Below, in pieces: positions 2 to 11,584 of a stretch of DNA of 11,584 nt. The notes beneath the pieces are model-generated. The model was not told where the DNA came from. It saw nothing but the letters and a program-made list of their open reading frames with translations, and searched no databases. The stretch spans positions 1 through 11,584 of the forward strand of contig CAMHBE010000028.1 of NCBI GenBank assembly GCA_946183095.1, read 5' to 3'. Each line of letters begins with the position of its first letter. Within the stretch, counting starts at the first letter, position 1. The position numbers and the translations under genes were made by a program. Source of the DNA: an uncultured Clostridia bacterium (lineage in GTDB: Bacteria; Bacillota; Clostridia; Oscillospirales; Ruminococcaceae).

Positions 2-187
2 AACTCCGTCGTGGTGGACGGCAAGAGCGCTCAGACACGCATAGATGAAGCCGTGAAGGTGATCGACCGCGAGATGAAGCGCAAGCTCGAAGAATTCGGC
101 TACATCGACAGTGACGGCAACACTCTGAAAGAGTACGTCATACCCGATATCCACAGTATCATGCCGATACTCGGAAGAGAACAGTAA
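2..187 (+). CDS. C-terminal end of an upstream protein, possibly an ABC sugar-binding protein (5' partial)
   Basis: An open frame enters from the left edge and stops with TAA at 185-187, leaving 61 residues. The visible part has an amphipathic, charged helical stretch (around DEAVKVIDREMKRKLEEFGY) and then a short tail ending PILGREQ. A helical C-terminus directly before a MalF/MalG-type permease pair is where a family-1 extracellular solute-binding protein is usually encoded, so that is the likely identity. It is inferred mainly from position, because no diagnostic domain is inside the window. The stop codon overlaps the ribosome binding site of the next gene, and only 15 nt separate the two coding regions, so translation is probably coupled within one operon. 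It could instead be the end of another enzyme or regulator. Confidence 0.55.
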   Translation, partial: NSVVVDGKSAQTRIDEAVKVIDREMKRKLEEFGYIDSDGNTLKEYVIPDIHSIMPILGREQ

Positions 188-202: not shown

Positions 203-1225
203 ATGGAAACACAGGCGAATGCCGCGGCTCCCGCAAAGCCCGCGGTGAAGCGCAGAAAAAACAAGATCTCCCGGCGTGAGAACAACTGGCGCGGCTGGCT
301 GTTCATCGGTCCTTATGCGATCATCTTCTCCATATTCATCCTCGTACCCGTTGTCCTTGCGGTGATACTCTCGTTTACGAACTTCAACGCGATACAGTTC
401 CCGAAGTTCGTGGGGTTTCTCAACTACATAACCATACTTACGAATGACGCGGAGTTCATGAAGTACGTCCTGCCGAATACCATTATCTACGCGGTAGTGG
501 TGGGCATCGGCGGCTACATCCTCTCATTCATCCTCGCGTGGGCGCTGTGCAACCTCACAAAGCCCGTGCGCACCGTATTCGCGCTGATACTCTACTCGCC
601 GAGCATGACCACCGGTGTTGCCATGACCGTACTCTGGAAGGTAATCTTCTCCGGCGACCAGTCGGGTCTGCTCAACAGCTGGCTCATGGAGCTGGGAGTT
701 ATCACCGAGCCTGTGCTGTGGCTCACCGATACGCGGTTCCTCCTGCCGATAGTCATAATAATCGGTCTGTGGTCGTCGATGGGTATCGGCTTCCTCAGCA
801 TGATAGCGGGTATTCTCAACACCGACGCTTCTCTCTACGAAGCGGCAGCCATAGACGGTATCACCAACCGTTTCCAGGAAATGGTCTATATCACCATACC
901 GCAGATGAAGCCGCAGATGCTGTTCGCGGCGGTCATGGCGATAGTCGGCGCATTCCAGAACGGCATGATAAGCTCCATGCTCGTCGGCAATCCCTCTCCG
1001 GGCTATGCGTCGCAGCTCCTCGTGAACCACATCGAGGACTATGGTTTCCTGCGCTACGAAATGGGCTACGCGGCGGCGATATCCGTCGTTCTGCTGCTGA
1101 TAGTGCAGCTGTTCAGCAAGGGCGCGAACGCACTGCTGACGGAGAAAGACCCATACGGAAAAGCAAAGGCGACAAAGAACAAGATCGTGAAAGAACTGAA
1201 AATGCCGGATGAAAGGAGGGCGTGA
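203..1225 (+). CDS. Carbohydrate ABC transporter permease, MalF/UgpA type (first pair)
   Basis: This 340-residue integral membrane protein is one half of the transmembrane channel of a CUT1 sugar importer. A basic N-terminus ([11 protein letters not shown], about 16-26) precedes the first membrane helix (about 32-58). Five more hydrophobic segments follow, giving the usual six. The ATPase-docking EAA loop is intact at about 213-233: EAA at 213-215, the conserved Gly at 219 and Pro at 233. Length and layout are normal for the MalF/UgpA group. ATG at 203 is preceded by AAGGAGGTG at 186-194, which overlaps the upstream stop. The gene is followed after 2 nt by its MalG-type partner, the standard heterodimer arrangement. 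No ATPase gene is adjacent. The transported sugar cannot be read from the sequence, although an oligosaccharide is typical of the family. Confidence 0.95.
1212..1220 (+). promoter_or_regulatory. Ribosome binding site that sets the MalG-type permease start
   Basis: AAAGGAGGG lies inside the last codons of the preceding permease gene. It sits 7 nt before ATG 1228 but only 1 nt before the in-frame GTG at 1222. Only the ATG has workable spacing, so the protein should begin MKGRKINPKR. Confidence 0.75.
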
Positions 1226-1227
1226 AG

Positions 1228-2091
1228 ATGAAGGGCAGAAAAATAAACCCCAAGCGCTTCGAGATAGGTCAGCTCAAAATAATCCTGCTCATACTCCCGC
1301 TCGTTATCTTCATGGGTATGCCTATCATCTTTATCATCAACCACGCTTTCAAGCCGATGGAAGAGCTGTTCGCGTTCCCTCCGACATTCTTTGTGAAAAA
1401 CGCGACCCTTGAGAATTTCAGCAAGCTGATAAAGTTTTCGGACAGCAGCGGCATACCGCTCAGCCGTTACCTCTTCAACAGCCTTGTGGTCACGGTCATA
1501 ACAGTGGGGCTTGCGCTGCTGCTCACCACAATGTCGGCATTCGCGCTCGCAAAGATAAAGTTCAAAGGCCGCAATATGCTGACCCGCATAAATCAGGTGG
1601 CGATCATGTTCGTCAGCACCGCTGTGCTGATACCGCGCTACATTGTTATCTGCAACCTCGGGCTCATCGACAACCTTCTGGCTCACATACTGCCGCTCGT
1701 GGCAATGCCGGTAGCGCTGTTCCTTGTGAAGCAGTTCGTTGAGCAGGTGCCCGATTCGCTGCTCGAAGCGGCGTACATGGACGGCGCCACCGACCTCGAT
1801 ATCTACCTCAAAGTCATAATGCCCATGATACGGCCCGCTGTTGCAACGGCAGCGATACTCGTATTCCAGCAGGTCTGGACGAACATGGAGACATCGAGCT
1901 ATTTCTTCAGCGACGACAGCATGAAGACTCTGACATTCTACATGAACACTCTCGTGAACGCGAACAACACCGTTGCCGGACAGGGTATGGCGGCTGCCGC
2001 TTCTCTGATAATGTTCCTGCCGAACCTCGTGCTTTTCATAATCCTTCAGAACAAGGTAATGAACACAATGGCAAATTCCGGTATCAAGTAA
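1228..2091 (+). CDS. Carbohydrate ABC transporter permease, MalG type (first pair)
   Basis: This 287-residue membrane protein is the second half of the first importer channel. A basic N-terminus leads into the first helix (about 17-38). The family signature NSLVVTV at about 84-90, ending in FALAKIKFKG (105-114), is clear. The EAA loop is at about 180-199, with E180, D185, G186 and P199, and it should dock on the nucleotide-binding subunit. About six membrane segments are visible and the length is typical. An in-frame GTG exists at 1222, but the ribosome binding site spacing favours ATG 1228. The gene starts 2 nt after the MalF-type gene and ends 18 nt before the NHL/YIP1 gene, so all three are probably on one message. 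The substrate is unknown. Confidence 0.95.
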   Translation: MKGRKINPKRFEIGQLKIILLILPLVIFMGMPIIFIINHAFKPMEELFAFPPTFFVKNATLENFSKLIKFSDSSGIPLSRYLFNSLVVTVITVGLALLLTTMSAFALAKIKFKGRNMLTRINQVAIMFVSTAVLIPRYIVICNLGLIDNLLAHILPLVAMPVALFLVKQFVEQVPDSLLEAAYMDGATDLDIYLKVIMPMIRPAVATAAILVFQQVWTNMETSSYFFSDDSMKTLTFYMNTLVNANNTVAGQGMAAAASLIMFLPNLVLFIILQNKVMNTMANSGIK

Positions 2092-2109
2092 GATCGGGGG
2101 TAAGAAAAT

Positions 2110-4158
2110 ATGCAAAAGCTGAAACGCCTTGCAGCGGCTTTACTTTCAGCCGTCGTAATATGTGTGGCATTGTCTGTCACCGCGTTTGCCGATACCCCCT
2201 ACGTTACATACACGATAAACGGTTACGGGCAGATACGAAGGACACAGACCGCGTATCTCGCGCATTCCACCGTTATCAAGTTCGGTGAAGAGTCTCTCGC
2301 GGCTCCCTCCGATATATGTCTGGCGGACGACGGGCTCATCTATGTTGCGGATTCCGGCAACAGACGTATAGTTGTGGGTACGGCAGACGGAGAGCTTGTC
2401 CGCATCATAGGCGAAGGCACTCTGAAAAATCCGCGCGGCGTATTCGTTACCGCAGACGGCAGCGTATATGTTGCCGACCGCGACGCGGAAAGAATATTCA
2501 TTTTCGCTCCGGACGGCGAGCTGACCGGGGAATACGGCAAGCCCGCAAGCCCCCTCTACGGAGATGAAGTCAGCTTCCTGCCGATAAAGATAGTCGTGAA
2601 TGATGCGGGCATCATGTTCGTGGTGTGCGAATCCAACACCAACGGTATCGTTGAGATATCCCCCACCGACGGCGGCACGTTCCTCGGCTACTTCGGCACG
2701 AACTATGCGGCGGTCGATCTGACCACTATAATCTACAGATCCATACTGACAGATGAACAGCGCGCAAAAATGGTGAGCAATATCCCTGCCACTCCCACGA
2801 ACCTCACTATCGACGGCAAGGGGCTCATCTACACCGTAACGCGCGGCAACGAGAACGATACGCTCAAACGCCTGAACATAGCAGGCACAAACATGATACA
2901 CAACACCGACGGGACTTACGCCGATACGCCCACTTCGGTAGCTGCCGGGAACCATGACAACGTTTATGTCGCTGACCAGCAGGGCTACATCTTCGAGTAC
3001 AACAACGAGGGCGAGATGATATTCGTGTTCGGCGGACCCGACGACGGTACCCAGCGTGTGGGTCTTTCCACAATGGTAAGCGGTATCGCGGTGGACAAGA
3101 ACGACCGCATATACGTTCTCGACTCCGACAAGGCGCAGATACAGATCTATCAGCCCACGGAGTTCACCGACCTGCTGCACAGCGCGCTGTACCTCTACTC
3201 AAAGGGTCGCTACACCGAAGCGAAGGAGCCGCTCACCGCGATACTTCGCATGAACTCGATGTTCGACTACGCAAACAAGGCTATGGGACGCTGCTACTTC
3301 CGTGAGGAGAACTACACCGAGGCTCTGCGCTACGCGAGACTTGCAAAGGACTACACGGGTTATTCCGACGCCTACTGGGAGATACGCAACGTATGGCTGA
3401 AAAACAACATCATCACTGTTATAATCGCACTGGTGCTGCTGTTCGTTATAATAAAGTTACTGAAAACGCTTGACAAGAAAAAGAACATCCTCGCGGCACC
3501 GAGAGCGTTCTTCGGGAAAGTGCGTGAAAAGCGCTTCATCGACAATTTCCTGTACGCGTTCAGGTTCATGAAGAAACCCGCCGACACCGCATACGGCATA
3601 GCGGCGGAGGGCAGGGAAGGCTGGCTGATGCCGTCGCTCCTGCTGCTCATCTTCATGGTGGAGTTCGTGCTCAACAAATACACCTGCGGCTTCCTCATGA
3701 AAGGCGTGATGGACGGCAGATACGAGATCCTCAGCGACATCGGCGCTATCATAGCGGTCGTCATTGCGGTGACAGCCTGCACCTACCTCGTCTGCACGAT
3801 AAACGAGGGCGAAGGCACGGTCAAGAAGATCTACACGGCGATATGCTACAGCCTTACGCCTTACATAATCTTCACGCCGCTCGTATATCTCCTGTCGCAC
3901 GTTCTCACCAACAATGAGATATTCCTGACAACGATGCTGTCGATACTCACTTACGGCTGGATCGCCGTTATAGCGTTCATCGGTATCAAGGAGGTCAACA
4001 ACTTCACGTTCTGGCAGACGGTGAAGGTGCTGCTGCTTACGGCGTTCACCGCGCTGATACTCGCGCTTCTGATATTCATAATCTATGTTCTCTGGGCTCA
4101 GGTGTTCGGATTCATCGGAGCTGTAGTCGGTGAGGGGGTGTACAGACTTGGATACTAA
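2110..4158 (+). CDS. Secreted NHL beta-propeller/TPR protein with C-terminal YIP1-like membrane domain
   Basis: This 682-residue protein has an unusual layered design. A Sec signal peptide covers about 1-27, with AFA before D28. Six NHL-like units follow at about 63-351, each running Pro/Gly, hydrophobic strand, DG or similar, (I/V)YV(A/L)D, then a strand ending in G. Good examples are GLIYVADSGNRRI (75-87), GSVYVADRDAERI (117-129) and DRIYVLDSDKAQI (332-344). Six units fit a closed propeller. A helical, TPR-like stretch with two units follows at about 354-420 (GRYTEAKEPL; ENYTEALRYA), then a membrane helix at 432-451 and a basic loop (KKK 456-458). Five more hydrophobic segments at about 505-662 resemble a YIP1 domain. 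By this topology the propeller and TPR lie outside the cell. From family memory, similar proteins occur beside DUF5696 genes in Bacillota sugar loci; I could not check this. Its role is unknown: scaffold, sensor or transport accessory are possible. The ribosome binding site is weak (GGGGG 2096-2100, 9 nt spacing). Its 3' end overlaps the next gene. Confidence 0.88.
   Translation: MQKLKRLAAALLSAVVICVALSVTAFADTPYVTYTINGYGQIRRTQTAYLAHSTVIKFGEESLAAPSDICLADDGLIYVADSGNRRIVVGTADGELVRIIGEGTLKNPRGVFVTADGSVYVADRDAERIFIFAPDGELTGEYGKPASPLYGDEVSFLPIKIVVNDAGIMFVVCESNTNGIVEISPTDGGTFLGYFGTNYAAVDLTTIIYRSILTDEQRAKMVSNIPATPTNLTIDGKGLIYTVTRGNENDTLKRLNIAGTNMIHNTDGTYADTPTSVAAGNHDNVYVADQQGYIFEYNNEGEMIFVFGGPDDGTQRVGLSTMVSGIAVDKNDRIYVLDSDKAQIQIYQPTEFTDLLHSALYLYSKGRYTEAKEPLTAILRMNSMFDYANKAMGRCYFREENYTEALRYARLAKDYTGYSDAYWEIRNVWLKNNIITVIIALVLLFVIIKLLKTLDKKKNILAAPRAFFGKVREKRFIDNFLYAFRFMKKPADTAYGIAAEGREGWLMPSLLLLIFMVEFVLNKYTCGFLMKGVMDGRYEILSDIGAIIAVVIAVTACTYLVCTINEGEGTVKKIYTAICYSLTPYIIFTPLVYLLSHVLTNNEIFLTTMLSILTYGWIAVIAFIGIKEVNNFTFWQTVKVLLLTAFTALILALLIFIIYVLWAQVFGFIGAVVGEGVYRLGY
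4132..4140 (+). promoter_or_regulatory. Ribosome binding site favouring a TTG start for the DUF5696-like gene
   Basis: GAGGGGGTG lies 7 nt before an in-frame TTG at 4148. The longer reading starts at GTG 4130, which overlaps this site and has only GGAG at 4117-4120 upstream. The purine tract resembles those before neighbouring genes (186-194, 1212-1220, 6401-6410), which favours TTG 4148. GTG 4130 remains possible and would add six residues. Confidence 0.5.
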
Positions 4159-6415
4159 AAAGCCGAGAAGGCTTCTCCCCGTCATCATTATATGCGCGGC
4201 AGTCCTGCTGATAGCCGCAATAGTGGTCGCAGTCATCATAATCACGGGTTCGGAAACGGATATCGTCAAAGGCACCCACAGTCACACCTCGCCGCTGCCC
4301 GCACTCGGCGCTAAAGTCGAAGCATCGCAGGATTACGTCAAGGTCGCGGAGAGCGATAACTACATACTGTACTACTACGAGCCGCGGTTCTCCATAAGGC
4401 TCGAAAACAAGAAGACCGGCGCTGTGCTCGATTCCACCGTCAGCGACGAAAAGGACGACGGCAGGAACAACGCGAGCTGGACGGCGTACATGAAGAGCGG
4501 CATAGTCCTGACCGCGATAATCGGCACTCTGAACACATATCAGGTGGATATGAACAGCGTGCAGAACGAGATCTCCACATGGTACACCGATAACGGCATC
4601 TATGCGAAGATACATTTCAAGGGCAACTACGACTTCGAGCTCGGCGTGGAAGTTGCGCTCAGCGGCGACGACCTTACGGTGCGCATCCCCGACGAGTCGA
4701 TAGCGGAGCACAAGGAAGGCACATACATAAGCACTGTCGGCGTGTTCCCGTTCCTCGGCTACACATACCTTGACGAGCAGGACGGATATATGCTCGTTCC
4801 CGACGGCAACGGTGCTCTGATATACCTCGACAACAAGGAGGGGCGCTACACCACGGGCTTTTCGGGGCTGATATACGGCATAGACGACGGAATGACCAAC
4901 CGTACCGCGACTTCCACGCTCTGGGAGCATTACGAGACGGTTACTTCCGCAAACACAGTGACCGCGCCGGTATTCGGCATGGCACACACGGAAGATGAAC
5001 AGGCATATCTCGGCATCGTCGAATCCGGCGACGAGAGATGCAGCGTAGAAGTAGTTCCCAACGGCGTTATGGTGGATTATAACCGCTGTTTTGCAAGGTT
5101 CCTGCTGCGTGACGTTTTCGTGCAGCCGCTCAACCAGTCGAACTCCGGCACCGTTCCGGCGGTAGAGCAAGACAGGCTTCACTCCGACCTTGCGGTGCGA
5201 TACAGGCTTCTTTCCGGTGAAAATGCGGATTATTCCGGCATGGCGAACGCTTACCGTTCGTACCTCCTCGATACCGGGAAGATACAAAAGCGTGACACGA
5301 GCTACAACACCCGTGTCGATATGCTCGGCACCGAGCGCGAATCGTTCCTCATGGGCACTGTTCCCGTTACGATGACGACTGCCGGTCAGGTCGGGGATAT
5401 ACTGAACGACCTGCGCGGCCTCGGCGTGCAGAACATACTGACGGTCTATAAGGGCTGGCAGAGCGGCGGGCTTTACGATGTCCCCGTGAGCTCATTCGGC
5501 GCTGACGGCTATATCGGCGGCAACTCCGCGGTAAAGGATCTTGTAAAGCAGCAGGCGGAGCTCGGCAATACCGTTTATCTGTATGACGACGCGCTTTCGG
5601 TCAATGCCGCGACACATTCCACCACATACAACGTGATGAAAATGGTGAACAAGCGCACGTTCGAGAACAAGACCCACGGGCAGGTATATGACACCTTCTA
5701 CTACCTCATGCCCGGACGCAGCAGCAGCGACCTTGCGCACCTGACCAAAGACATATCCGGCGCCGGTATAGGCAATATCGCGCTTGCGGGTATCACCGGA
5801 ACGCTGTTCTCCTACAGCTCGAAAGGCTCGTACTACTCCCGCACCGACACCATGGATATCTACGAGGACGCGGTGAGCGCGGCTGACGGGAGCTGCAATG
5901 TCATAGCGGAAAGACCGAACGCTTATCTCTGGAGATACTCGGACGCTTTCCTCGATATGCCGCTGAGCTCCTCGGATTATATGTACCTTGACCGTGAAGT
6001 GCCATTCCTGTCAATGGTGCTCAAAGGCGTTGTTCCGACATACTCGGATTATGTGAACTTTGAAGCCAACAAGAAGGAGAACTTCCTGCAAATGGTGGAG
6101 TCGGGCGTTTACCCGTCATTCTACGTCGCGGCGGAGGATTCCTCGAAGCTGATATACACCAATTCGAGAAACCTGTATTCCCTCGAATACACGTCTTACC
6201 GTGATACGATCGTCGAATACGACACGGCGCTGCGGGCGATAGCGGAAAAAACGTCGGGAGCCTGCATAATTTCCCACGAGGTAACGGACAGCGGTCTTGC
6301 AAAAGTAACCTACGACAACGGCGTTGTCATCTATGTGAATTATTCCGGATCCGCGCAGAGCGACGGCGATGTTACCGTGGACGCGCTTTCCTATACCGTA
6401 AAGGGGGGTGAGTGA
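4148..6415 (+). CDS. Membrane-anchored extracytoplasmic protein, DUF5696-like, with glycosidase-like layout
   Basis: This protein has 755 residues from TTG 4148, or 761 from GTG 4130. A basic N-terminus (KKPRR) precedes one membrane helix (about 10-33) with no clear cleavage site, so it is probably a membrane-tethered protein facing outward. Residues about 60-370 look all-beta, a sandwich-like region. A barrel-like alternation follows at about 400-640, with strand-end motifs VYKGWQSGG (433-441) and VYLYDDALS (476-484). The segment VPFLSMVLKGVVPTYSDY (618-635) and the later ESGVYPSF (651-658) match my memory of the DUF5696 family. A beta-rich C-terminus ends in VKGGE. The order sandwich, barrel, sandwich resembles large glycosidases, so a role in binding or cutting a glycan is inferred, not shown. 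D480 and D481 are candidate active-site acids. The start overlaps the NHL/YIP1 gene, and the stop is 2 nt before a permease start. A non-catalytic binding protein is an alternative. Confidence 0.85.
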   Translation: MDTKKPRRLLPVIIICAAVLLIAAIVVAVIIITGSETDIVKGTHSHTSPLPALGAKVEASQDYVKVAESDNYILYYYEPRFSIRLENKKTGAVLDSTVSDEKDDGRNNASWTAYMKSGIVLTAIIGTLNTYQVDMNSVQNEISTWYTDNGIYAKIHFKGNYDFELGVEVALSGDDLTVRIPDESIAEHKEGTYISTVGVFPFLGYTYLDEQDGYMLVPDGNGALIYLDNKEGRYTTGFSGLIYGIDDGMTNRTATSTLWEHYETVTSANTVTAPVFGMAHTEDEQAYLGIVESGDERCSVEVVPNGVMVDYNRCFARFLLRDVFVQPLNQSNSGTVPAVEQDRLHSDLAVRYRLLSGENADYSGMANAYRSYLLDTGKIQKRDTSYNTRVDMLGTERESFLMGTVPVTMTTAGQVGDILNDLRGLGVQNILTVYKGWQSGGLYDVPVSSFGADGYIGGNSAVKDLVKQQAELGNTVYLYDDALSVNAATHSTTYNVMKMVNKRTFENKTHGQVYDTFYYLMPGRSSSDLAHLTKDISGAGIGNIALAGITGTLFSYSSKGSYYSRTDTMDIYEDAVSAADGSCNVIAERPNAYLWRYSDAFLDMPLSSSDYMYLDREVPFLSMVLKGVVPTYSDYVNFEANKKENFLQMVESGVYPSFYVAAEDSSKLIYTNSRNLYSLEYTSYRDTIVEYDTALRAIAEKTSGACIISHEVTDSGLAKVTYDNGVVIYVNYSGSAQSDGDVTVDALSYTVKGGE
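6401..6410 (+). promoter_or_regulatory. Ribosome binding site that sets the second MalF-type permease start
   Basis: AAGGGGGGTG sits 7 nt before ATG 6418. The in-frame GTG at 6412 is only 1 nt away, so ATG 6418 (MADTKKMSRK) is preferred. The site lies within the last codons of the DUF5696-like gene, which suggests translational coupling. Confidence 0.7.
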
Positions 6416-6417
6416 CC

Positions 6418-7500
6418 ATGGCTGATACCAAAAAAATGTCCCGCAAGGAGAAGAAAGAGCTCAAAGAGCGCATGAAGCACCTCAAATCGGGCAAGCTCGA
6501 AAAACGCTATGCGCGGATGGGCTACATCTTCATGATACCGTGGTTCATCGGCGCGGCAGTGTTCCTTGCCTACCCGCTGGGCAGCTCGTTCTGGTACGCC
6601 CTCAACAATATCCGCATAACCCCGCTGGGCAGGATATTCAACTTTGTGGGTCACGGCAACTTCACACAGATACTCATTCAGGACCCGGATTTCATGATCT
6701 ATCTTGTGGATTATCTCACATCAACGATCATATCCGTTCCTATCATCGTGGTATTCGCCCTTATCATCGCGATGATGCTGAACATGAAGATAAAGGGCAA
6801 GGGATTTTTCCGCCTGATATTCTTCCTGCCCGTTATCATCGTGAGCGGTCCTATCCTCGGAATGCTCAACGCGCAGGGCGCCGGCAGCGTATCGGCGATA
6901 GATACCGCGGCGCTTTCGGGCGCGATAGGTTCGGTGCTGCCGGAGATCATCGCGAAGCCTATATCGGACGTATTCAGCAACATGATAACTACGCTCTGGT
7001 ATTCGGGCGTGCAGATACTCATATTCCTGTCGGGACTCCAGAAGATCGACAAGTCCATGTACGAAGCCGCGAAGATAGACGGCGGTTCGGGCTGGGAATG
7101 TTTCTGGAAGATAACGCTCCCGAACCTAAAATCCATGATACTGCTGAATACGATCTACACCGTCGTGTTCATTTCCAACAACAGCGAGAACCCGATAATC
7201 GTGCTCATCAAGGATTCGATGTTCTCCGGAACGAAGGAGAAGGGCTACGGCTATGCATCGGCAATGGCATGGCTCTACTCTGTGGTGGTGCTGATACTTG
7301 TCGGATTGTTCGCACTGCTCCTCGCGACACGAAAAGACCAGTACGAGAAGCAGGTAAAACGTGCGATGAAGGCACGCAAGAGAGAAAAACGCAACAAACA
7401 GCGGATAGAAAGGAGGAACCGTCGGAATGCCAGAAGGATCGAAAAACAGCGCGCGAAAGGCAAGATCACAACGCACAGCACCAAGCGCGAAGACTACTAA
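6418..7500 (+). CDS. Carbohydrate ABC transporter permease, MalF/UgpA type (second pair), with long basic tail
   Basis: This 360-residue membrane protein is one half of a second CUT1 importer. The N-terminus is long and charged (about 1-34, many Lys, Arg and Glu) before the first helix (about 35-60). The EAA loop is intact at about 216-235, with E216, A217, A218, G222 and P235. Membrane segments run to about 303. After that comes a tail of roughly 55 residues that is overwhelmingly Arg and Lys (for example KARKREKRNKQRIERR, 318-333). This is longer and more basic than usual for the family and should lie in the cytoplasm. The last 74 nt overlap the next gene. It differs clearly from the permease at 203-1225, so this is a distinct second pair and not a fresh duplication. 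The substrate is unknown. Confidence 0.94.
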   Translation: MADTKKMSRKEKKELKERMKHLKSGKLEKRYARMGYIFMIPWFIGAAVFLAYPLGSSFWYALNNIRITPLGRIFNFVGHGNFTQILIQDPDFMIYLVDYLTSTIISVPIIVVFALIIAMMLNMKIKGKGFFRLIFFLPVIIVSGPILGMLNAQGAGSVSAIDTAALSGAIGSVLPEIIAKPISDVFSNMITTLWYSGVQILIFLSGLQKIDKSMYEAAKIDGGSGWECFWKITLPNLKSMILLNTIYTVVFISNNSENPIIVLIKDSMFSGTKEKGYGYASAMAWLYSVVVLILVGLFALLLATRKDQYEKQVKRAMKARKREKRNKQRIERRNRRNARRIEKQRAKGKITTHSTKREDY

Positions 7501-8449
7501 GAGCTGGCGGGAGCGGTTCACCCGGGAGAAGATACACCGCTTCATGTTCGGCACCAAGGACAGGGAAGGCTTCCTTAAGCAGTTCACGGTATATGCGCTG
7601 CTCATCTGTATCGGTTTCATCTACGTCTATCCGATACTCCACATGGTATCGAGCAGCCTCATGACCCTCGACGACCTTCTCGACTCCTCGATAAAATGGC
7701 TGCCGAGTTCGCTGAACCTGTCGAACTATCAGCAGGCGGCGACCAGCATGGATTTCTGGAACGCGCTCTGGCAGAGCATCGTCATTGCGGGCGTACCCAC
7801 GATATGCAACCTCATATCCTGCTCGGTAACGGGCTACGCACTTGCGAGATTTGATTTCCGCGGCAAGAAGATCATCATGGGCATCATTATCCTGAGTTTC
7901 GTCCTGCCGAGCCAGATAACCATGATACCCACCTATGTTCTTTATTCCAACCTCGGCATACTGAACACTATCTGGGCGTTCATCCTGCCGGCACTGTTCG
8001 CGCAGGGGTTCAAGGCACCGATATTCATTCTGATATTCTGGCAGTTCTTCCGGCAGATACCGAAAGCGCTGATAGAAGCGTCGAGAATAGACGGCGCGGG
8101 GCATTTCCGCTCGTTCTTCCGGATAGCGCTGCCCAGTGCGAAACCCGCGTTCATCACAGTTGCTCTGTTCTCGTTCGTGTGGTACTGGAACGAGTCCTAC
8201 CTGACGGAGCTGTACGTTCACGGAGTTTACGGGCAGTCCGACTGGACGACGCTGGTGGTGCAGCTCGACAACTTCGCCGCTAACTTCTCCAGCTATCAGC
8301 AGACGGCGACTGCGGGTGCCACCAACCTCAACGAGTCGATCAATATGTCGGGCACGCTCCTCAGCATACTGCCGCTCATGATACTGTATTTCGTATTGCA
8401 GCGTCACTTCGTCGAGAGCATCGACAGAACAGGTATCACGGGAGAGTAA
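7427..8449 (+). CDS. Carbohydrate ABC transporter permease, MalG type (second pair)
   Basis: This 340-residue membrane protein completes the second importer channel. It has a long, basic cytoplasmic N-terminus (about 1-50), then a helix at about 53-74. The family signature GYALARFDFRG lies at 136-146. The EAA loop is at about 217-236, with E217, A218, D222, G223 and P236. About six membrane segments are visible, and the last lies near 308-325. ATG 7427 has AAAGGAGG at 7409-7416 with 10 nt spacing. No other good ribosome binding site is seen further in, so the 74-nt overlap with the preceding permease looks real. The N-terminus is about 30-40 residues longer than in the MalG-type protein at 1228-2091. 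It is probably the last gene of the upstream block, since the next 227 bases are non-coding. The likely receptor partner is the lipoprotein encoded at 8677-10326. Confidence 0.94.
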   Translation: MPEGSKNSARKARSQRTAPSAKTTKSWRERFTREKIHRFMFGTKDREGFLKQFTVYALLICIGFIYVYPILHMVSSSLMTLDDLLDSSIKWLPSSLNLSNYQQAATSMDFWNALWQSIVIAGVPTICNLISCSVTGYALARFDFRGKKIIMGIIILSFVLPSQITMIPTYVLYSNLGILNTIWAFILPALFAQGFKAPIFILIFWQFFRQIPKALIEASRIDGAGHFRSFFRIALPSAKPAFITVALFSFVWYWNESYLTELYVHGVYGQSDWTTLVVQLDNFAANFSSYQQTATAGATNLNESINMSGTLLSILPLMILYFVLQRHFVESIDRTGITGE

Positions 8450-8613: not shown

Positions 8614-8666
8614 AATAAATTTTTAATGTTCAAAACACGGGAAAACGTCCTGTGTAAAAATAAAAT

Positions 8667-8671
8667 GGAGG
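8667..8671 (+). promoter_or_regulatory. Ribosome binding site that sets the solute-binding protein start
   Basis: GGAGG lies 5 nt before ATG 8677. An in-frame ATG at 8626 would add 17 residues (starting MFKTRENVLC) that destroy a normal lipoprotein signal peptide, and it has no purine-rich site ahead of it. ATG 8677 is therefore the start. Confidence 0.8.
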
Positions 8672-8676
8672 CTAAT

Positions 8677-10326
8677 ATGAAGAAAAGCAGAATATTATCA
8701 ATGCTGCTCGCGGGATGTCTCGCTGTAAGCGCACTTGCGGGCTGCGGAGGAAACGGCGGTAACACTGCCGGCGGCAATACCGGGAACAGCGGCGGCGAAG
8801 CGGCTGCAAACACAGGTGCGGGCGGAAACGGCGGCTCGGCTGCATCCGTCACCAACGACTTCGAGCTTGTGACAGTTGACGGCAGCACACATCAGTACAA
8901 GAAGTACAAGGATGTCACAAGCGACAACATCACCCTCACATATTTCCACTTTGACCAGGATGAAACGGTAAAGCTCCTCGCTAAGCGCTTCATGCAGATC
9001 TATCCGAACATCACCGTCAATGTGCAGTATGAGAACGTTTCGACCTACAACACCACGCTGTCAACGCTGGTAAGCAACAACCAGTCGCCCGATATCATCA
9101 TGCATTCCGACTGTGACTACGCGCTCTCGAATATGCTCCTTTCGGACATCTCCGCTTACTGGAACAGCGACGACGAGACAAAGAACGTTGCCGACACCAT
9201 AAATTCCGCGGGTCTCGGAACTTACAACCTTGAAGGCGGTATGCGCTACAGCGTACCCGTAAAGTTCTTCCCCGGCGCTGTATTCATCGACCGCAACGTG
9301 CTCGAGACACTCAACCTCAAAGTTCCCACACAGCAGTGGAAGTGGGCTGACATGATACAGCTCATCAAGGACGCTACCGTGCTCAACTCCCCCGACGGTC
9401 AGGCTTACTACGGTCTCGGCTACTACAACCGTCTCGACTCCTACTACGGAATTGCCGCAAGACAGGACATCATCGGTGAGTTCGGCTTCAACGGCAAGAC
9501 CTTCGACCTCTCTCAGTGGGCAATAGGCGAACAGGAGTTCGCAAACCTCAAACTCGGCGGCTATATCGCTCCGCAGACCGAGACACAGGCTATGGAAGAC
9601 TGGAGCGGCGACTGGGAAGGCTGGGCTGGCAACACAGGCCATGCAGCCGTATTCTCCGAAGCGTTCTGGACATTCCAGAATACATGGAACACTCCCGCTT
9701 ACAAGGAAGCGTACAACCTCGACATAGTTCCCTACGTTATCCCCGCAGTTTCCGAAGCTGACGCGGGCGCAGACCACCATTCCATTGCAACTATCGACTA
9801 CGGCGGCATCACTACCTCCTGCAAATATCCTCGTGAAGCGTATGAGCTGCTGAAGTTCATGTCCTTCGGTATCGACGGCTGGTACACACGCTGTGAGATC
9901 TACTCCGACGAGACTATCGTGAACGCTATGGGCACAGCTCTCAAATACGACGTAATGCCCGTGCCGATCACAAAGGATCAGGGCGTATGGGACGAGTACA
10001 TCAAGGTTTTCTGCGCAGGTATGGACGATGAACACGTCGGACTCTGGAAAGATTACTTCAAGTCCTGTATGCAGCCTATCTCGTTCGGCTGGACGAGTAT
10101 CGCCGGCTACTGGAACTTCTGCGATGAGTATTTCAATTCTATCGGCATCCACGACCTTGTTGACAACGGCACCGCGCAGGCAGCCGACTACGTTGAGGAA
10201 GCGAACCGCAAGGCAAACTATTACCACGCACAGGCAATGCTCGACTACTTCGGACCTTCGGCATACAATGTCCTTTCAGAATCCGAGATAGCGGAGTATG
10301 AGAAGATGAAGACCGACAATCAGTAA
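8677..10326 (+). CDS. Extracellular solute-binding lipoprotein, family 1 (sugar ABC importer receptor)
   Basis: This 549-residue lipoprotein is the substrate receptor of a CUT1 importer. The signal peptide (1-22) begins MKKSR and ends with lipobox LAGC, with C23 as the lipidated residue. A Gly/Asn-rich flexible linker spans about 24-57. The mature domain has the family-1 pattern: an initial strand and helix (NITLTYFHF, 84-92; LLAKRFMQIYPNITVNVQYE, 100-119), then SPDIIMHSD (137-145) and an IDRNVLETL element (204-212). The segment DWSGDWEGWAG (308-318) is rich in Trp, and aromatic residues are common throughout (YY, WKW, FW). This suits stacking against sugar rings. The length is a little above the 400-450 typical of small receptors but normal for Clostridia. 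It sits downstream of the second permease pair and 50 nt before a LamG lipoprotein gene. It is probably transcribed more strongly than the permeases, judging from codon use and a candidate promoter. The ligand is unknown. Confidence 0.93.
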   Translation: MKKSRILSMLLAGCLAVSALAGCGGNGGNTAGGNTGNSGGEAAANTGAGGNGGSAASVTNDFELVTVDGSTHQYKKYKDVTSDNITLTYFHFDQDETVKLLAKRFMQIYPNITVNVQYENVSTYNTTLSTLVSNNQSPDIIMHSDCDYALSNMLLSDISAYWNSDDETKNVADTINSAGLGTYNLEGGMRYSVPVKFFPGAVFIDRNVLETLNLKVPTQQWKWADMIQLIKDATVLNSPDGQAYYGLGYYNRLDSYYGIAARQDIIGEFGFNGKTFDLSQWAIGEQEFANLKLGGYIAPQTETQAMEDWSGDWEGWAGNTGHAAVFSEAFWTFQNTWNTPAYKEAYNLDIVPYVIPAVSEADAGADHHSIATIDYGGITTSCKYPREAYELLKFMSFGIDGWYTRCEIYSDETIVNAMGTALKYDVMPVPITKDQGVWDEYIKVFCAGMDDEHVGLWKDYFKSCMQPISFGWTSIAGYWNFCDEYFNSIGIHDLVDNGTAQAADYVEEANRKANYYHAQAMLDYFGPSAYNVLSESEIAEYEKMKTDNQ

Positions 10327-10376: not shown

Positions 10377-11584
10377 ATGAAGAAGAAATTATCATTCGTG
10401 CTTGCATTCGCAATGGTGCTGTCACTTGCAGCCTGCGGCGGCAACGCAAACACCACCACGACTGCCGCAACACAGGCTCCCGCGGCGAACGATGCGGGAA
10501 CGACCACCACAACATCGGCTCCCGCGGAAGACACATCGGCTGCCGATACGGAAGCTACCGAGGAGGAGAAGCCCCCTGTTGAAGCGGAACCTGTTCCGGA
10601 CGGCGCTCTCCTGCATTTCGATTTCGAGAACGCTGACGGCCTTACGGCAACAGAGCAGACCGAGAACCTCGGCGCTCTTACCGGCGCAAACTTCGGCATC
10701 CAGGACTCCGCGCATGATATCCTCATCGCAGAGGGTCAGGGCGCTATAGGCAACGCTCTCTACCTCGACGGCAAATACGGCGTTGATTTCCAGATGCCCG
10801 AACTTGCCGAGGACATCTACACCATTTCGTTCTGGTACAACGCAGACCGCGTTTCCGCTTACGGTCCTGTAGTGCAGATGGGCAGGAACTGCGGTATGTC
10901 CAACGCGGACGCTACCGTGACATGGCTCAACTTCACAAAGACAGAGTGGGGCTCGAACTCTGCGGATATCTTCCCGGTAGCATGGAACCGCAACTCCTCT
11001 ATCGGTACAGAGGTCAATGCTGACGGCGTATGGCCGTGGATCTACGCGATGGACGATTCCGTACACGGCAAGCGTGAATGGTGCAACGTGACAATAGTTG
11101 CCGACGGAAACCGCTATGTTGCCGATGACGGCATGGAGAGGATCGCGACCAAGTTCTATATCGACGGCGAACTGAAGTGGGAAGCTAACGCCGAGAATAT
11201 GTACTATCAGGGTCTGTCTCCCGAGATCTTCAAGGGCGAGGGTCTTGAAGGTCATATCGGTATCAACTACTGGGATACCGTATTCAAGGGATTTATAGAT
11301 GAGCTCTACATCTATGACAAGGCGCTCACCGACGGTCAGGTAAAGGGTCTGTTCGAGCAGGGCAATCCTCCCGAAACACCCGTAGCTCCCGAATACACAG
11401 CTCCCGACGGAACAGCGGCGGAAGCAGAGCCCGAAGCACTCCCCGCAGCTCCCGTTGACGCTTCCGCTATAGACGTTCTCGGTACTCCCGACCGTGTACT
11501 CGGTTTCTGGAGCGATACCACCGACGGCTATGAACTCGCGGACGGCGCTGAGCGCACATTCGTGCTCAACAACTACTCCAACGG
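10377..11584 (+). CDS. LamG/concanavalin-like lectin lipoprotein (3' partial)
   Basis: The frame opens at ATG 10377 and runs off the window after 402 full codons. AAAGGAAAG at 10361-10369 is a modest ribosome binding site. The signal peptide ends in lipobox LAAC, with C20 as the lipidated residue. A Thr/Ala/Glu/Pro-rich linker covers about 21-74. Residues about 75-327 look like a LamG (concanavalin A-like) jelly roll: an opening LLHFDFE, then GNALYLDGKYG, ISFWYNAD, KFYIDGELKW, and the closing hallmark IDELYIYDKAL (307-317). A second Pro/Ala/Glu-rich linker follows. A new domain then begins near the edge with GFWSDTTDGYELADG, resembling beta-sandwich modules of surface glycan-binding proteins. 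The protein is probably cell-surface anchored and binds polysaccharide, perhaps feeding the importers. Binding, not catalysis, is my inference, and a catalytic module beyond the edge cannot be excluded. Confidence 0.85.
   Translation, partial: MKKKLSFVLAFAMVLSLAACGGNANTTTTAATQAPAANDAGTTTTTSAPAEDTSAADTEATEEEKPPVEAEPVPDGALLHFDFENADGLTATEQTENLGALTGANFGIQDSAHDILIAEGQGAIGNALYLDGKYGVDFQMPELAEDIYTISFWYNADRVSAYGPVVQMGRNCGMSNADATVTWLNFTKTEWGSNSADIFPVAWNRNSSIGTEVNADGVWPWIYAMDDSVHGKREWCNVTIVADGNRYVADDGMERIATKFYIDGELKWEANAENMYYQGLSPEIFKGEGLEGHIGINYWDTVFKGFIDELYIYDKALTDGQVKGLFEQGNPPETPVAPEYTAPDGTAAEAEPEALPAAPVDASAIDVLGTPDRVLGFWSDTTDGYELADGAERTFVLNNYSN

Follow-up and report, generated by a model that had tools for sequence, protein, structure and literature searches.

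A conserved seven-gene unit with two CUT1 permease pairs in Bacillota as a candidate composite glycan importer

Why should two distinct pairs of CUT1 permease genes bracket an NHL/TPR/Yip1 membrane protein and a DUF5696 protein in one tightly spaced block? This arrangement is seen in a stretch of 11,584 nt from an uncultured Clostridia bacterium, analyzed here over its full length and called the window. The first-pass annotation of this DNA had proposed one machine or pathway that couples surface glycan handling to uptake. The analysis, based on sequence and predicted structure, shows a copy of a conserved seven-gene unit in the window, and we see about even chances that this unit builds a composite glycan importer driven by ATP, its most likely role.

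Gene content of the window

The reading frames bear out the six genes initially described, with their coordinates, + strand orientation, and tight spacing (Table 1). P1 and P2 overlap by 4 nt, P2 is followed by the NHL/TPR/Yip1 gene after 18 nt, DUF5696 and P3 overlap by 4 nt, and P3 and P4 by 74 nt. The NHL/TPR/Yip1 and DUF5696 genes overlap by 29 nt if the latter is read from GTG 4130, and by 11 nt from TTG 4148, the probable start, whose Leu was aligned by eye with relatives. The boundary of the block was drawn too narrowly: a seventh gene, CS, the first of the conserved unit, had been missed at the contig start, and genes for SBP2 and a LamG-type lipoprotein also follow P4. Contig C77 of the window's own genome also breaks off inside a CS-type gene.

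Table 1. Features of the window.
Feature	Position	Strand	Details
CS gene, 3' end	2..187	+	C-terminal 61 codons and stop; start lost at contig start
P1, CUT1 permease, MalF type, constant half	203..1225	+	BPD_transp_1 29.2 bits
P2, CUT1 permease, MalG type, constant half	1222..2091	+	BPD_transp_1 55 bits
NHL/TPR/Yip1 protein	2110..4158	+	NHL 68.8 bits, Yip1 46.2 bits, TPR_16 20.9 bits (below cut-off)
DUF5696 (PF18952) protein	4148..6415 (longer frame from GTG 4130)	+	565.7 bits, cut-off 25.6
P3, CUT1 permease, MalF type, variable half	6412..7500	+	BPD_transp_1 38.7 bits
P4, CUT1 permease, MalG type, variable half	7427..8449	+	BPD_transp_1 64.9 bits
SBP2, lipoprotein-type solute-binding protein	8626..10326 (ATG 8677 probable start)	+	SBP_bac_1 49.4 bits
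LamG-type (concanavalin-like) lipoprotein	10377..11582	+	Laminin_G_3 35.8 bits; 3' end lost at contig end

Pfam matches agree with the proposed identity of all four permeases and of the third gene, which matches both NHL and Yip1. The fourth gene, called DUF5696-like at first, is a true DUF5696 member, given its score relative to the cut-off. The permease pairs are distinct, as had been claimed: P1 and P3 are 25% identical, and P2 and P4 21%, hence a recent duplication is ruled out.

EAA-type loops are widely retained in all four permeases, with the loose and strict patterns seen, respectively, in 102 and 64 of 102 P1 proteins, in 100 and 100 of 102 for P2, in 109 and 84 of 116 for P3, and in 107 and 107 of 115 for P4. 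The other parts of a CUT1 importer are also present alongside these BPD_transp_1 pairs: SBP_bac_1-type proteins are represented by SBP2 and by the C-terminal domain of CS in 8/9 relatives scanned, and MalK-type ATPases (ABC_tran with OB_MalK) are found at the gene level, the genome of the window giving two matches to OB_MalK. A MalK-type cluster, one representative of which was scanned by Pfam, lies near 12 of the 80 close loci (best 80 of 572), and ugpC is immediately upstream of the module in Paenibacillus cellulosilyticus.

Terminator-like sites on the + strand are seen inside the block at 5963–5975 and 8096–8110; the whole window has 8 against a shuffled mean of 8.7, i.e., no excess. An Rfam scan of the window yields no structured RNA above the gathering score. 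A promoter scan finds 16 sites where 8.5 would be expected, and 11 of these sites are antisense.

Conservation of the unit and its two halves

Gene order was compared in three locus sets under a 300-nt chain rule. Set A (close loci) was limited to the best 80 of 572 confirmed loci, so that its members are neither a random nor an independent sample; set B comprises 17/20 loci (L032–L034 duplicate the records of L057, L061, and L060 and were omitted); and set C comprises 20 loci chosen by hand among the strong matches of the genome search, from 18 genomes of 10 families. The complete seven-gene order is found in 67/80, 13/17, and 14/20 loci, respectively; L039 and L043 keep the order of the parts yet fail the chain rule, and L044 and L035 are cut by contig ends. 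In every complete chain of sets A and B, and in 14/15 of set C, the two permease pairs flank the propeller/Yip1 and DUF5696 genes. Named carriers include Ruminococcus albus 8 (L062), Lachnoclostridium phytofermentans (L109), Butyrivibrio fibrisolvens, and P. cellulosilyticus. The first-pass annotation mentioned similar neighborhoods in other Bacillota and named adjacency in this genome alone as a finding that would refute its reading; as the order recurs across the phylum, it exceeds chance, and adjacency confined to a single genome, or an artefact, is ruled out.

Among 299 genomes, DUF5696 (>400 bits) and module-type Yip1 (>130 bits) occur in identical sets of 28, the window's own and 27 others; the next best scores outside this set are 26.5 and 51 bits. 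CS is present in all 28 (in G155 partially, at a contig start) and in G156 and G198, the only genomes with CS and no DUF5696 or Yip1 detected, whose contigs end inside P1. The divergence of nine parts is correlated in 36/36 pairs of distance matrices (r 0.47–0.82, 0/999 permutations each), a figure that still contains the shared phylogeny. A conserved unit, co-inherited across many Bacillota, is therefore well supported by the sequences, and to this extent the proposed machine or pathway stands; adjacency and co-inheritance do not amount to contact between the parts.

The unit divides into a constant half (CS-P1-P2) and a variable half. Median identities over 20 modules are 48.8% for P1, 48.0% for P2, and 40.7% for the solute-binding part of CS, compared to 36.7% for P4, 35.5% for P3, and 25.6% for DUF5696. 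CS relatives are about 1000 aa long, with CBM_35/CBM_6-like and coiled-coil-like regions at the N-terminus and SBP_bac_1/SBP_bac_8 at about residues 575–890 (8/9 scanned); the CBM-like part, at 29.8% identity, is as diverged as the variable half. One common ligand may by itself account for the lower divergence of CS-P1-P2.

Free CS-P1-P2 cassettes are seen in four genomes (L159, L162, L163, L166), and in G117 and G208, 12/18 NHL-DUF5696-P3-P4 blocks have no attached CS-P1-P2. Module-type Yip1 genes number at least 10 per genome in G096, G117, G135, and G182 (2.2–3.0 Mb each), copy numbers in many-copy genomes being lower bounds. The constant half is thus separable and apparently shared by several variable halves, a property beyond the reach of the initial description; the 4/20 set C loci that have no attached CS-P1-P2 are compatible with such sharing and do not prove it.

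In the variable half, the NHL/TPR/Yip1 protein has an NHL beta-propeller in its first half, a TPR-like stretch at residues 359–413, a transmembrane segment, and a C-terminal Yip1 domain at residues 486–655 (approximately 3565–4074), for which a sequence search at E ≤ 1 finds no solved relative. It is encoded by two genes in 8/13 and 9/14 complete divergent chains. In the open-licence PMC literature, we found no paper on NHL together with YIP1, on two permease pairs in one unit, or on DUF5696; NHL with Caldicellulosiruptor returned nothing, and NHL with Cphy only unrelated papers.

The DUF5696 protein and neighboring genes

The DUF5696 protein consists of an N-terminal membrane helix, a beta-sandwich, and a TIM barrel, and its structure predicted from 70 sequences has the GH129 fold; this model replaced an unusable single-sequence prediction (pLDDT 35.5). 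Residues were compared in 118 sequences, each longer than 650 aa and above 300 bits, the active site being mapped by strand order and sequence anchors rather than superposed coordinates. One anchor is a barrel stretch that aligned when profiles were compared with a GH101 protein of Embleya (E 0.15, not significant). We take the catalytic residues to be an Asp nucleophile and a Glu acid/base, as in GH101 and GH129. At the nucleophile position on beta4, 80/80 close relatives (best 80 of 572 loci) have Gly, and the 37 divergent ones vary, 13 of them having Asp; the acid/base position is Glu in 75/80 close relatives. The window's protein has Gly and Glu, respectively. The strict pair, D548 and E588, is seen in 0/80 close and 1/37 divergent members (L133), and a tolerant Asp+Glu pair in 5/80 and 4/37. 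Asp or Glu also occupies columns D219, D246, D391, D615, and E651 in 91–98% of sequences. At E ≤ 0.1, 45 DUF5696 members together match 24 families, and Glyco_hydro_129 (PF11308) is not one of them. When 149 genomes of the phylum were searched with PF11308, not even the controls matched, and hence that search is uninformative on absence. As the catalytic pair is not kept, an active GH129 enzyme is disfavored: in the model, DUF5696 has a GH129-type fold that is apparently dead as an enzyme, although some members could be active, since a few keep an Asp+Glu pair.

Near the close loci (best 80 of 572), the SBP2 cluster is found in 60/80, the LamG-type cluster in 52/80, and GH43/GH51/GH127-type neighbors in 64/80, the glycosidase counts being based on BLAST clusters from each of which a single representative was scanned by Pfam; where 5 kb of sequence is available downstream, 7/65 close loci lack all four glycosidase clusters. 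SBP2 probably partners P3-P4. The LamG-type lipoprotein, whose cluster representative (from L059) has no Pfam match at 1e-5, is considered an accessory of the window's subfamily. Among 37 divergent loci, nine were left out (no ORF after P4 in 8, CS in 1); ten divergent neighbors picked by eye as likely enzymes were scanned, and those of L050 and L133 contain no clear glycosidase. No regulator is recognized among recurrent neighbors, which were clustered from ORFs of 200 aa or more on the same strand, a choice that would miss divergent regulators; B. fibrisolvens has genes for a histidine kinase and a response regulator upstream, on the opposite strand.

A candidate composite importer and its alternatives

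In the proposed importer, the constant half would consist of CS, with its carbohydrate-binding regions fused to a solute-binding domain, and P1-P2; the variable half, of the NHL/TPR/Yip1 protein, DUF5696, P3-P4, and, usually, a dedicated SBP2. CS and DUF5696 would grip glycan chains at the membrane or present them there, and the propeller/Yip1 protein would dock them together with both permease pairs into one physical complex. Glycosidases encoded in the locus, both secreted and cytosolic ones, would trim the chain, SBP2 would deliver to P3-P4, and both pairs would be driven by a MalK/MsmK-type ATPase, usually encoded elsewhere; free constant halves would act in trans. The cargo in the window would most likely be an L-arabinofuranosyl oligosaccharide. 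Coupling of surface glycan handling to uptake, as first suggested, is plausible in view of the neighboring glycosidases, the CBM-bearing solute-binding protein, the predicted GH129 fold with a membrane helix, the EAA-type loops, and the MalK-type ATPases in the genome.

P3-P4 with SBP2 could by themselves be an ordinary importer, and CS-P1-P2 and SBP2-P3-P4 might be two independent CUT1 importers, each taking up a different product of one polysaccharide and sharing a transcript with accessory surface proteins. Each pair indeed has its own solute-binding protein and EAA-type loops, and the xylan locus of C. bescii holds two CUT1 importers, as described in PMC8579813. However, the solute-binding domain of CS stays at the above identity while the neighboring enzymes change, CS without DUF5696 and Yip1 is limited, among the 299 genomes, to the two truncated contigs, and both membrane proteins remain between the pairs in nearly all complete chains, making this explanation rather unlikely.

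It is quite unlikely that CS-P1-P2, perhaps with NHL/Yip1, is a glycan sensor or controller and P3-P4 the sole importer: the low variability of CS-P1-P2, the presence in G117 and G208 of one free copy for many variable halves, and the two-component genes of B. fibrisolvens fit such a role, but P1 and P2 retain the loops expected for ATPase-coupled transport, and the same-strand neighbors include no recognized regulator. DUF5696 might instead be the enzyme step of the machine, as an active glycosidase anchored in the membrane that belongs to a new family and has non-GH129 catalytic residues. Its complete predicted fold, the acidic columns, and the frequent acid/base Glu are in line with activity, while Gly at the nucleophile position and the near absence of the strict pair, as mapped here, speak against it, and we regard this as unlikely.

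CUT1 importers such as MalEFGK2, UgpABCE, and MsmEFGK likewise have two EAA-loop permeases, an SBP_bac_1 protein, and an unlinked or shared MalK/MsmK-type ATPase; the module differs in its two permease pairs per unit and its CBM-fused solute-binding protein of about 1000 aa, and to our knowledge NHL/TPR/Yip1 and DUF5696 membrane proteins do not occur in standard CUT1 systems. Unlike GH129 (NagBb, ZgGH129) and GH101, DUF5696 has an N-terminal membrane helix and, in all loci examined, lies beside permease genes. Group II ECF vitamin transporters also have a constant part common to several specificity parts encoded elsewhere, whereas here both halves hold a complete CUT1 permease pair; no ECF T or S component family is found among the Pfam matches of eight window proteins. 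Sus-type PUL systems of Bacteroidota and the Sphingomonas alginate ABC importer couple surface glycan binding to import and, similar to the module, have glycosidases in the same locus, but differ in permease number and partner proteins; no SusC/SusD-type protein is among the window's Pfam matches.

Extending the composite importer further, we tentatively consider it possible that the propeller/Yip1 scaffold and a catalytically dead clamp of GH129 fold dock a shared constant CUT1 unit (CBM-SBP with P1-P2) onto P3-P4/SBP2 importers that are interchangeable. A single constant half would then serve many substrate-specific ones per cell, and the machine would be a new class of glycan importer in Gram-positive bacteria, the equivalent in Bacillota of Sus-type systems, perhaps supplying the cell with long chains instead of short sugars. 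The module is an example of a constant import half that is apparently common to many specific halves, and DUF5696, a family of unknown function, gains a predicted fold and a testable role. The carrier records are presently annotated as two separate permease pairs, "NHL repeat-containing," "YIP1 family," and "DUF5696"; the results point to a composite glycan-uptake machine that would be undescribed, and if it is one machine, this annotation obscures one way in which Bacillota of the rumen and soil take up glycans.

Gene block and the seventh gene

The window spans contig C28 (11,584 bases) from end to end. By Pfam, the block singled out in the first-pass annotation comprises six genes, encoding CUT1 permease pair 1 (P1, P2), an NHL/TPR/Yip1 protein (NHL), a DUF5696 protein, and CUT1 permease pair 2 (P3, P4). 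Its tight arrangement is confirmed, neighboring genes overlapping or being separated by at most 18 nt. The permease pairs are distinct, as proposed, with identities of 25% and 21% between them; these values rule out the pairs being recent copies of each other. P4 is followed by a solute-binding protein (SBP2) and a LamG-type lipoprotein, which looks like a standard accessory of the window's subfamily: members of its cluster lie near the module in 52/80 close loci (best 80 of 572 confirmed).

The unit exceeds these six genes. In relatives, a protein of about 1000 amino acids (CS) is encoded directly 5' of P1 (97 ORFs, including two from duplicate records). Its C-terminal part matches SBP_bac_1/8 in 8 of 9 sequences scanned, while the N-terminal part matches Golvesin_C in 8, CBM_35 in 6, and CBM_6 in 2 of 20 sequences (E ≤ 0.01). 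The N-terminal profile shows two stretches of alignment to portions of solved carbohydrate-active enzymes, the first of them weak, followed by alignment to designed coiled coils. Contig C77 of the window's genome terminates within a CS gene that shares 80% identity with its counterpart in locus L052; by comparison with L052, about 4 codons separate C77 from the window contig.

Coordinates of features in the window and in other loci
Feature	Sequence	Positions	Remark
CS, last 61 codons and stop	window	2-187	
Six-gene block P1 to P4	window	203-8449	
SBP2	window	8626-10326	3' of P4
LamG-type lipoprotein	window	10377-11582	cut by contig end
Module region	L153	15952-25175	Paenibacillus cellulosilyticus plasmid
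CS-N-terminal-like protein	L164 (G066)	6177-7808	no SBP domain
DUF5696-P3-P4-NHL/Yip1	L172	2800-9700	propeller gene last

Gene order and co-occurrence

Similar neighborhoods in other Bacillota had been mentioned in the earlier reading, and the adjacency of NHL-Yip1 and DUF5696 indeed recurs in all three sets of loci compared. The complete order CS-P1-P2-NHL-DUF5696-P3-P4 is seen in 67/80 loci of set A (the closest loci, best 80 of 572 confirmed), the remaining 13 being cut by contig ends; in 13/17 divergent loci drawn from within the genus and from further families of the order (set B; DUF5696 identity 22–28% by BLAST), where two more are cut and L039 and L043 have the genes in sequence but a wider gap between NHL and DUF5696; and in 14/20 loci from 18 genomes of 10 families of the phylum (set C). 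Elsewhere in set C, L135 is cut, L149 has its two blocks swapped, and four loci (L136, L140, L141, L146) lack CS-P1-P2 in front of the block. Among complete chains, Yip1 is a separate gene in 8/13 from set B, 9/14 from set C, and 0/67 from set A. Named, independently annotated examples are Butyrivibrio fibrisolvens pNP243 and a plasmid of Paenibacillus cellulosilyticus, where ugpC lies directly upstream of the module. The named genomes nearest to the window (among the best 80 of 572 loci) are rumen and gut Oscillospiraceae/'Ruminiclostridium' and Ruminococcus albus 8, hence a rumen-type host is likely.

Of the labelled loci, only L172 has a block in which the propeller gene comes last. The window's genome carries a second, divergent module copy (L035 and L161, contigs C78 and C175; DUF5696 23% identical), and at least one DUF5696 gene is present in 35/35 genus-mates searched.

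Among 299 phylum genomes, including the window's own, DUF5696 exceeds 400 bits in 28 (27 besides the window's own; nine additional genomes match at ≤26.5 bits), and module-type Yip1 exceeds 130 bits in exactly these 28 (thirteen more at ≤51 bits). The CS N-terminal part, searched in the same genomes, exceeds 400 bits in 27 of the 28, the match in the remaining one (G155) being partial, at a contig start, and also in G156 and G198. In the latter two, the CS genes lie on 3.8- and 4.3-kb contigs ending inside P1, so the rest of the module may be absent from the assembly. Four further genomes match at 125–163 bits, without the SBP part; CS-N-terminal-like proteins of about 456–561 amino acids without the SBP domain are seen in G066, G109, G145, and G174, genomes without strong DUF5696. 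For the most part, this pattern reflects whether a genome has the operon at all; beyond that, it shows that module-type Yip1 was not seen apart from DUF5696 in the genomes searched.

Constant and variable halves

In 20 divergent complete modules, median pairwise identity is 48.8% for P1, 48.0% for P2, and 40.7% for the SBP part of CS, versus 36.7% for P4, 35.5% for P3, 32.7% for the propeller, 29.8% for the CS N-terminal part, 29.6% for Yip1, and 25.6% for DUF5696. The distance matrices of all parts correlate (0.47–0.82; for each of 36 pairs, 0/999 permutations reach the actual correlation), and these values include a contribution from shared phylogeny. CS-P1-P2 is also found free-standing among unrelated genes in L159, L162, L163, and L166, all of one family; by eye, from protein starts, these cassettes have similar surroundings in different genomes, adjoining peptidase-like and carboxylase-like genes. 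Of at least ten variable blocks (NHL-DUF5696-P3-P4) in G117, three have CS-P1-P2 attached and seven have none; of at least eight in G208, three have it (one swapped) and five do not. In G278, the search found one block with DUF5696 (L146), to which no CS-P1-P2 is attached, and one CS, which belongs to the free cassette L159. The most economical inference is that a single constant half may serve several variable halves.

Transport, cargo, and unity of the module

A loose EAA-type pattern is present in 102/102 P1, 100/102 P2, 109/116 P3, and 107/115 P4 sequences, and a strict one in 64/102, 100/102, 84/116, and 107/115, respectively. The window's genome has two MalK-type ATPase matches; such ATPases lie near the module in 12/80 close loci (best 80 of 572). 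The first sizeable gene 3' of P4 encodes an SBP_bac_1 protein in 13/28 divergent loci scanned. Near the module, 21/37 divergent loci have a protein of SBP size from one shared cluster; the representative of this cluster, taken from L039, matches no Pfam family.

Close loci (best 80 of 572) contain a GH43 cluster member (48/80), a GH51-type alpha-L-arabinofuranosidase (35/80), a secreted GH43 (32/80), or GH127 (5/80), with at least one of the four in 64/80 and none in 7/65 having 5 kb of downstream sequence. FGGY kinase (7/80) and class II aldolase-type genes (5/80) agree with arabinose catabolism; the GH43 family is not restricted to arabinosides. Divergent copies (ten neighbors picked for scanning) adjoin GH26, GH28, GH35/42, GH3, GH106, glucoamylase-type, and rhamnosidase-type genes, hence the machine as such is not arabinose-specific. 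After the module in L153 come genes for four flavin-dependent oxidoreductases of the LLM class, one NADPH-dependent oxidoreductase, and two SBPs rather than for glycosidases, which suggests an unusual cargo.

The first-pass annotation had suggested one machine or pathway. As a single functional unit, the seven genes are well supported; that they form a single physical importer is our best guess, which could equally prove right or wrong. Listings from full-text searches of open-licence PMC papers contained no description of this unit. The original observation grows into a conserved and apparently undescribed seven-gene module.
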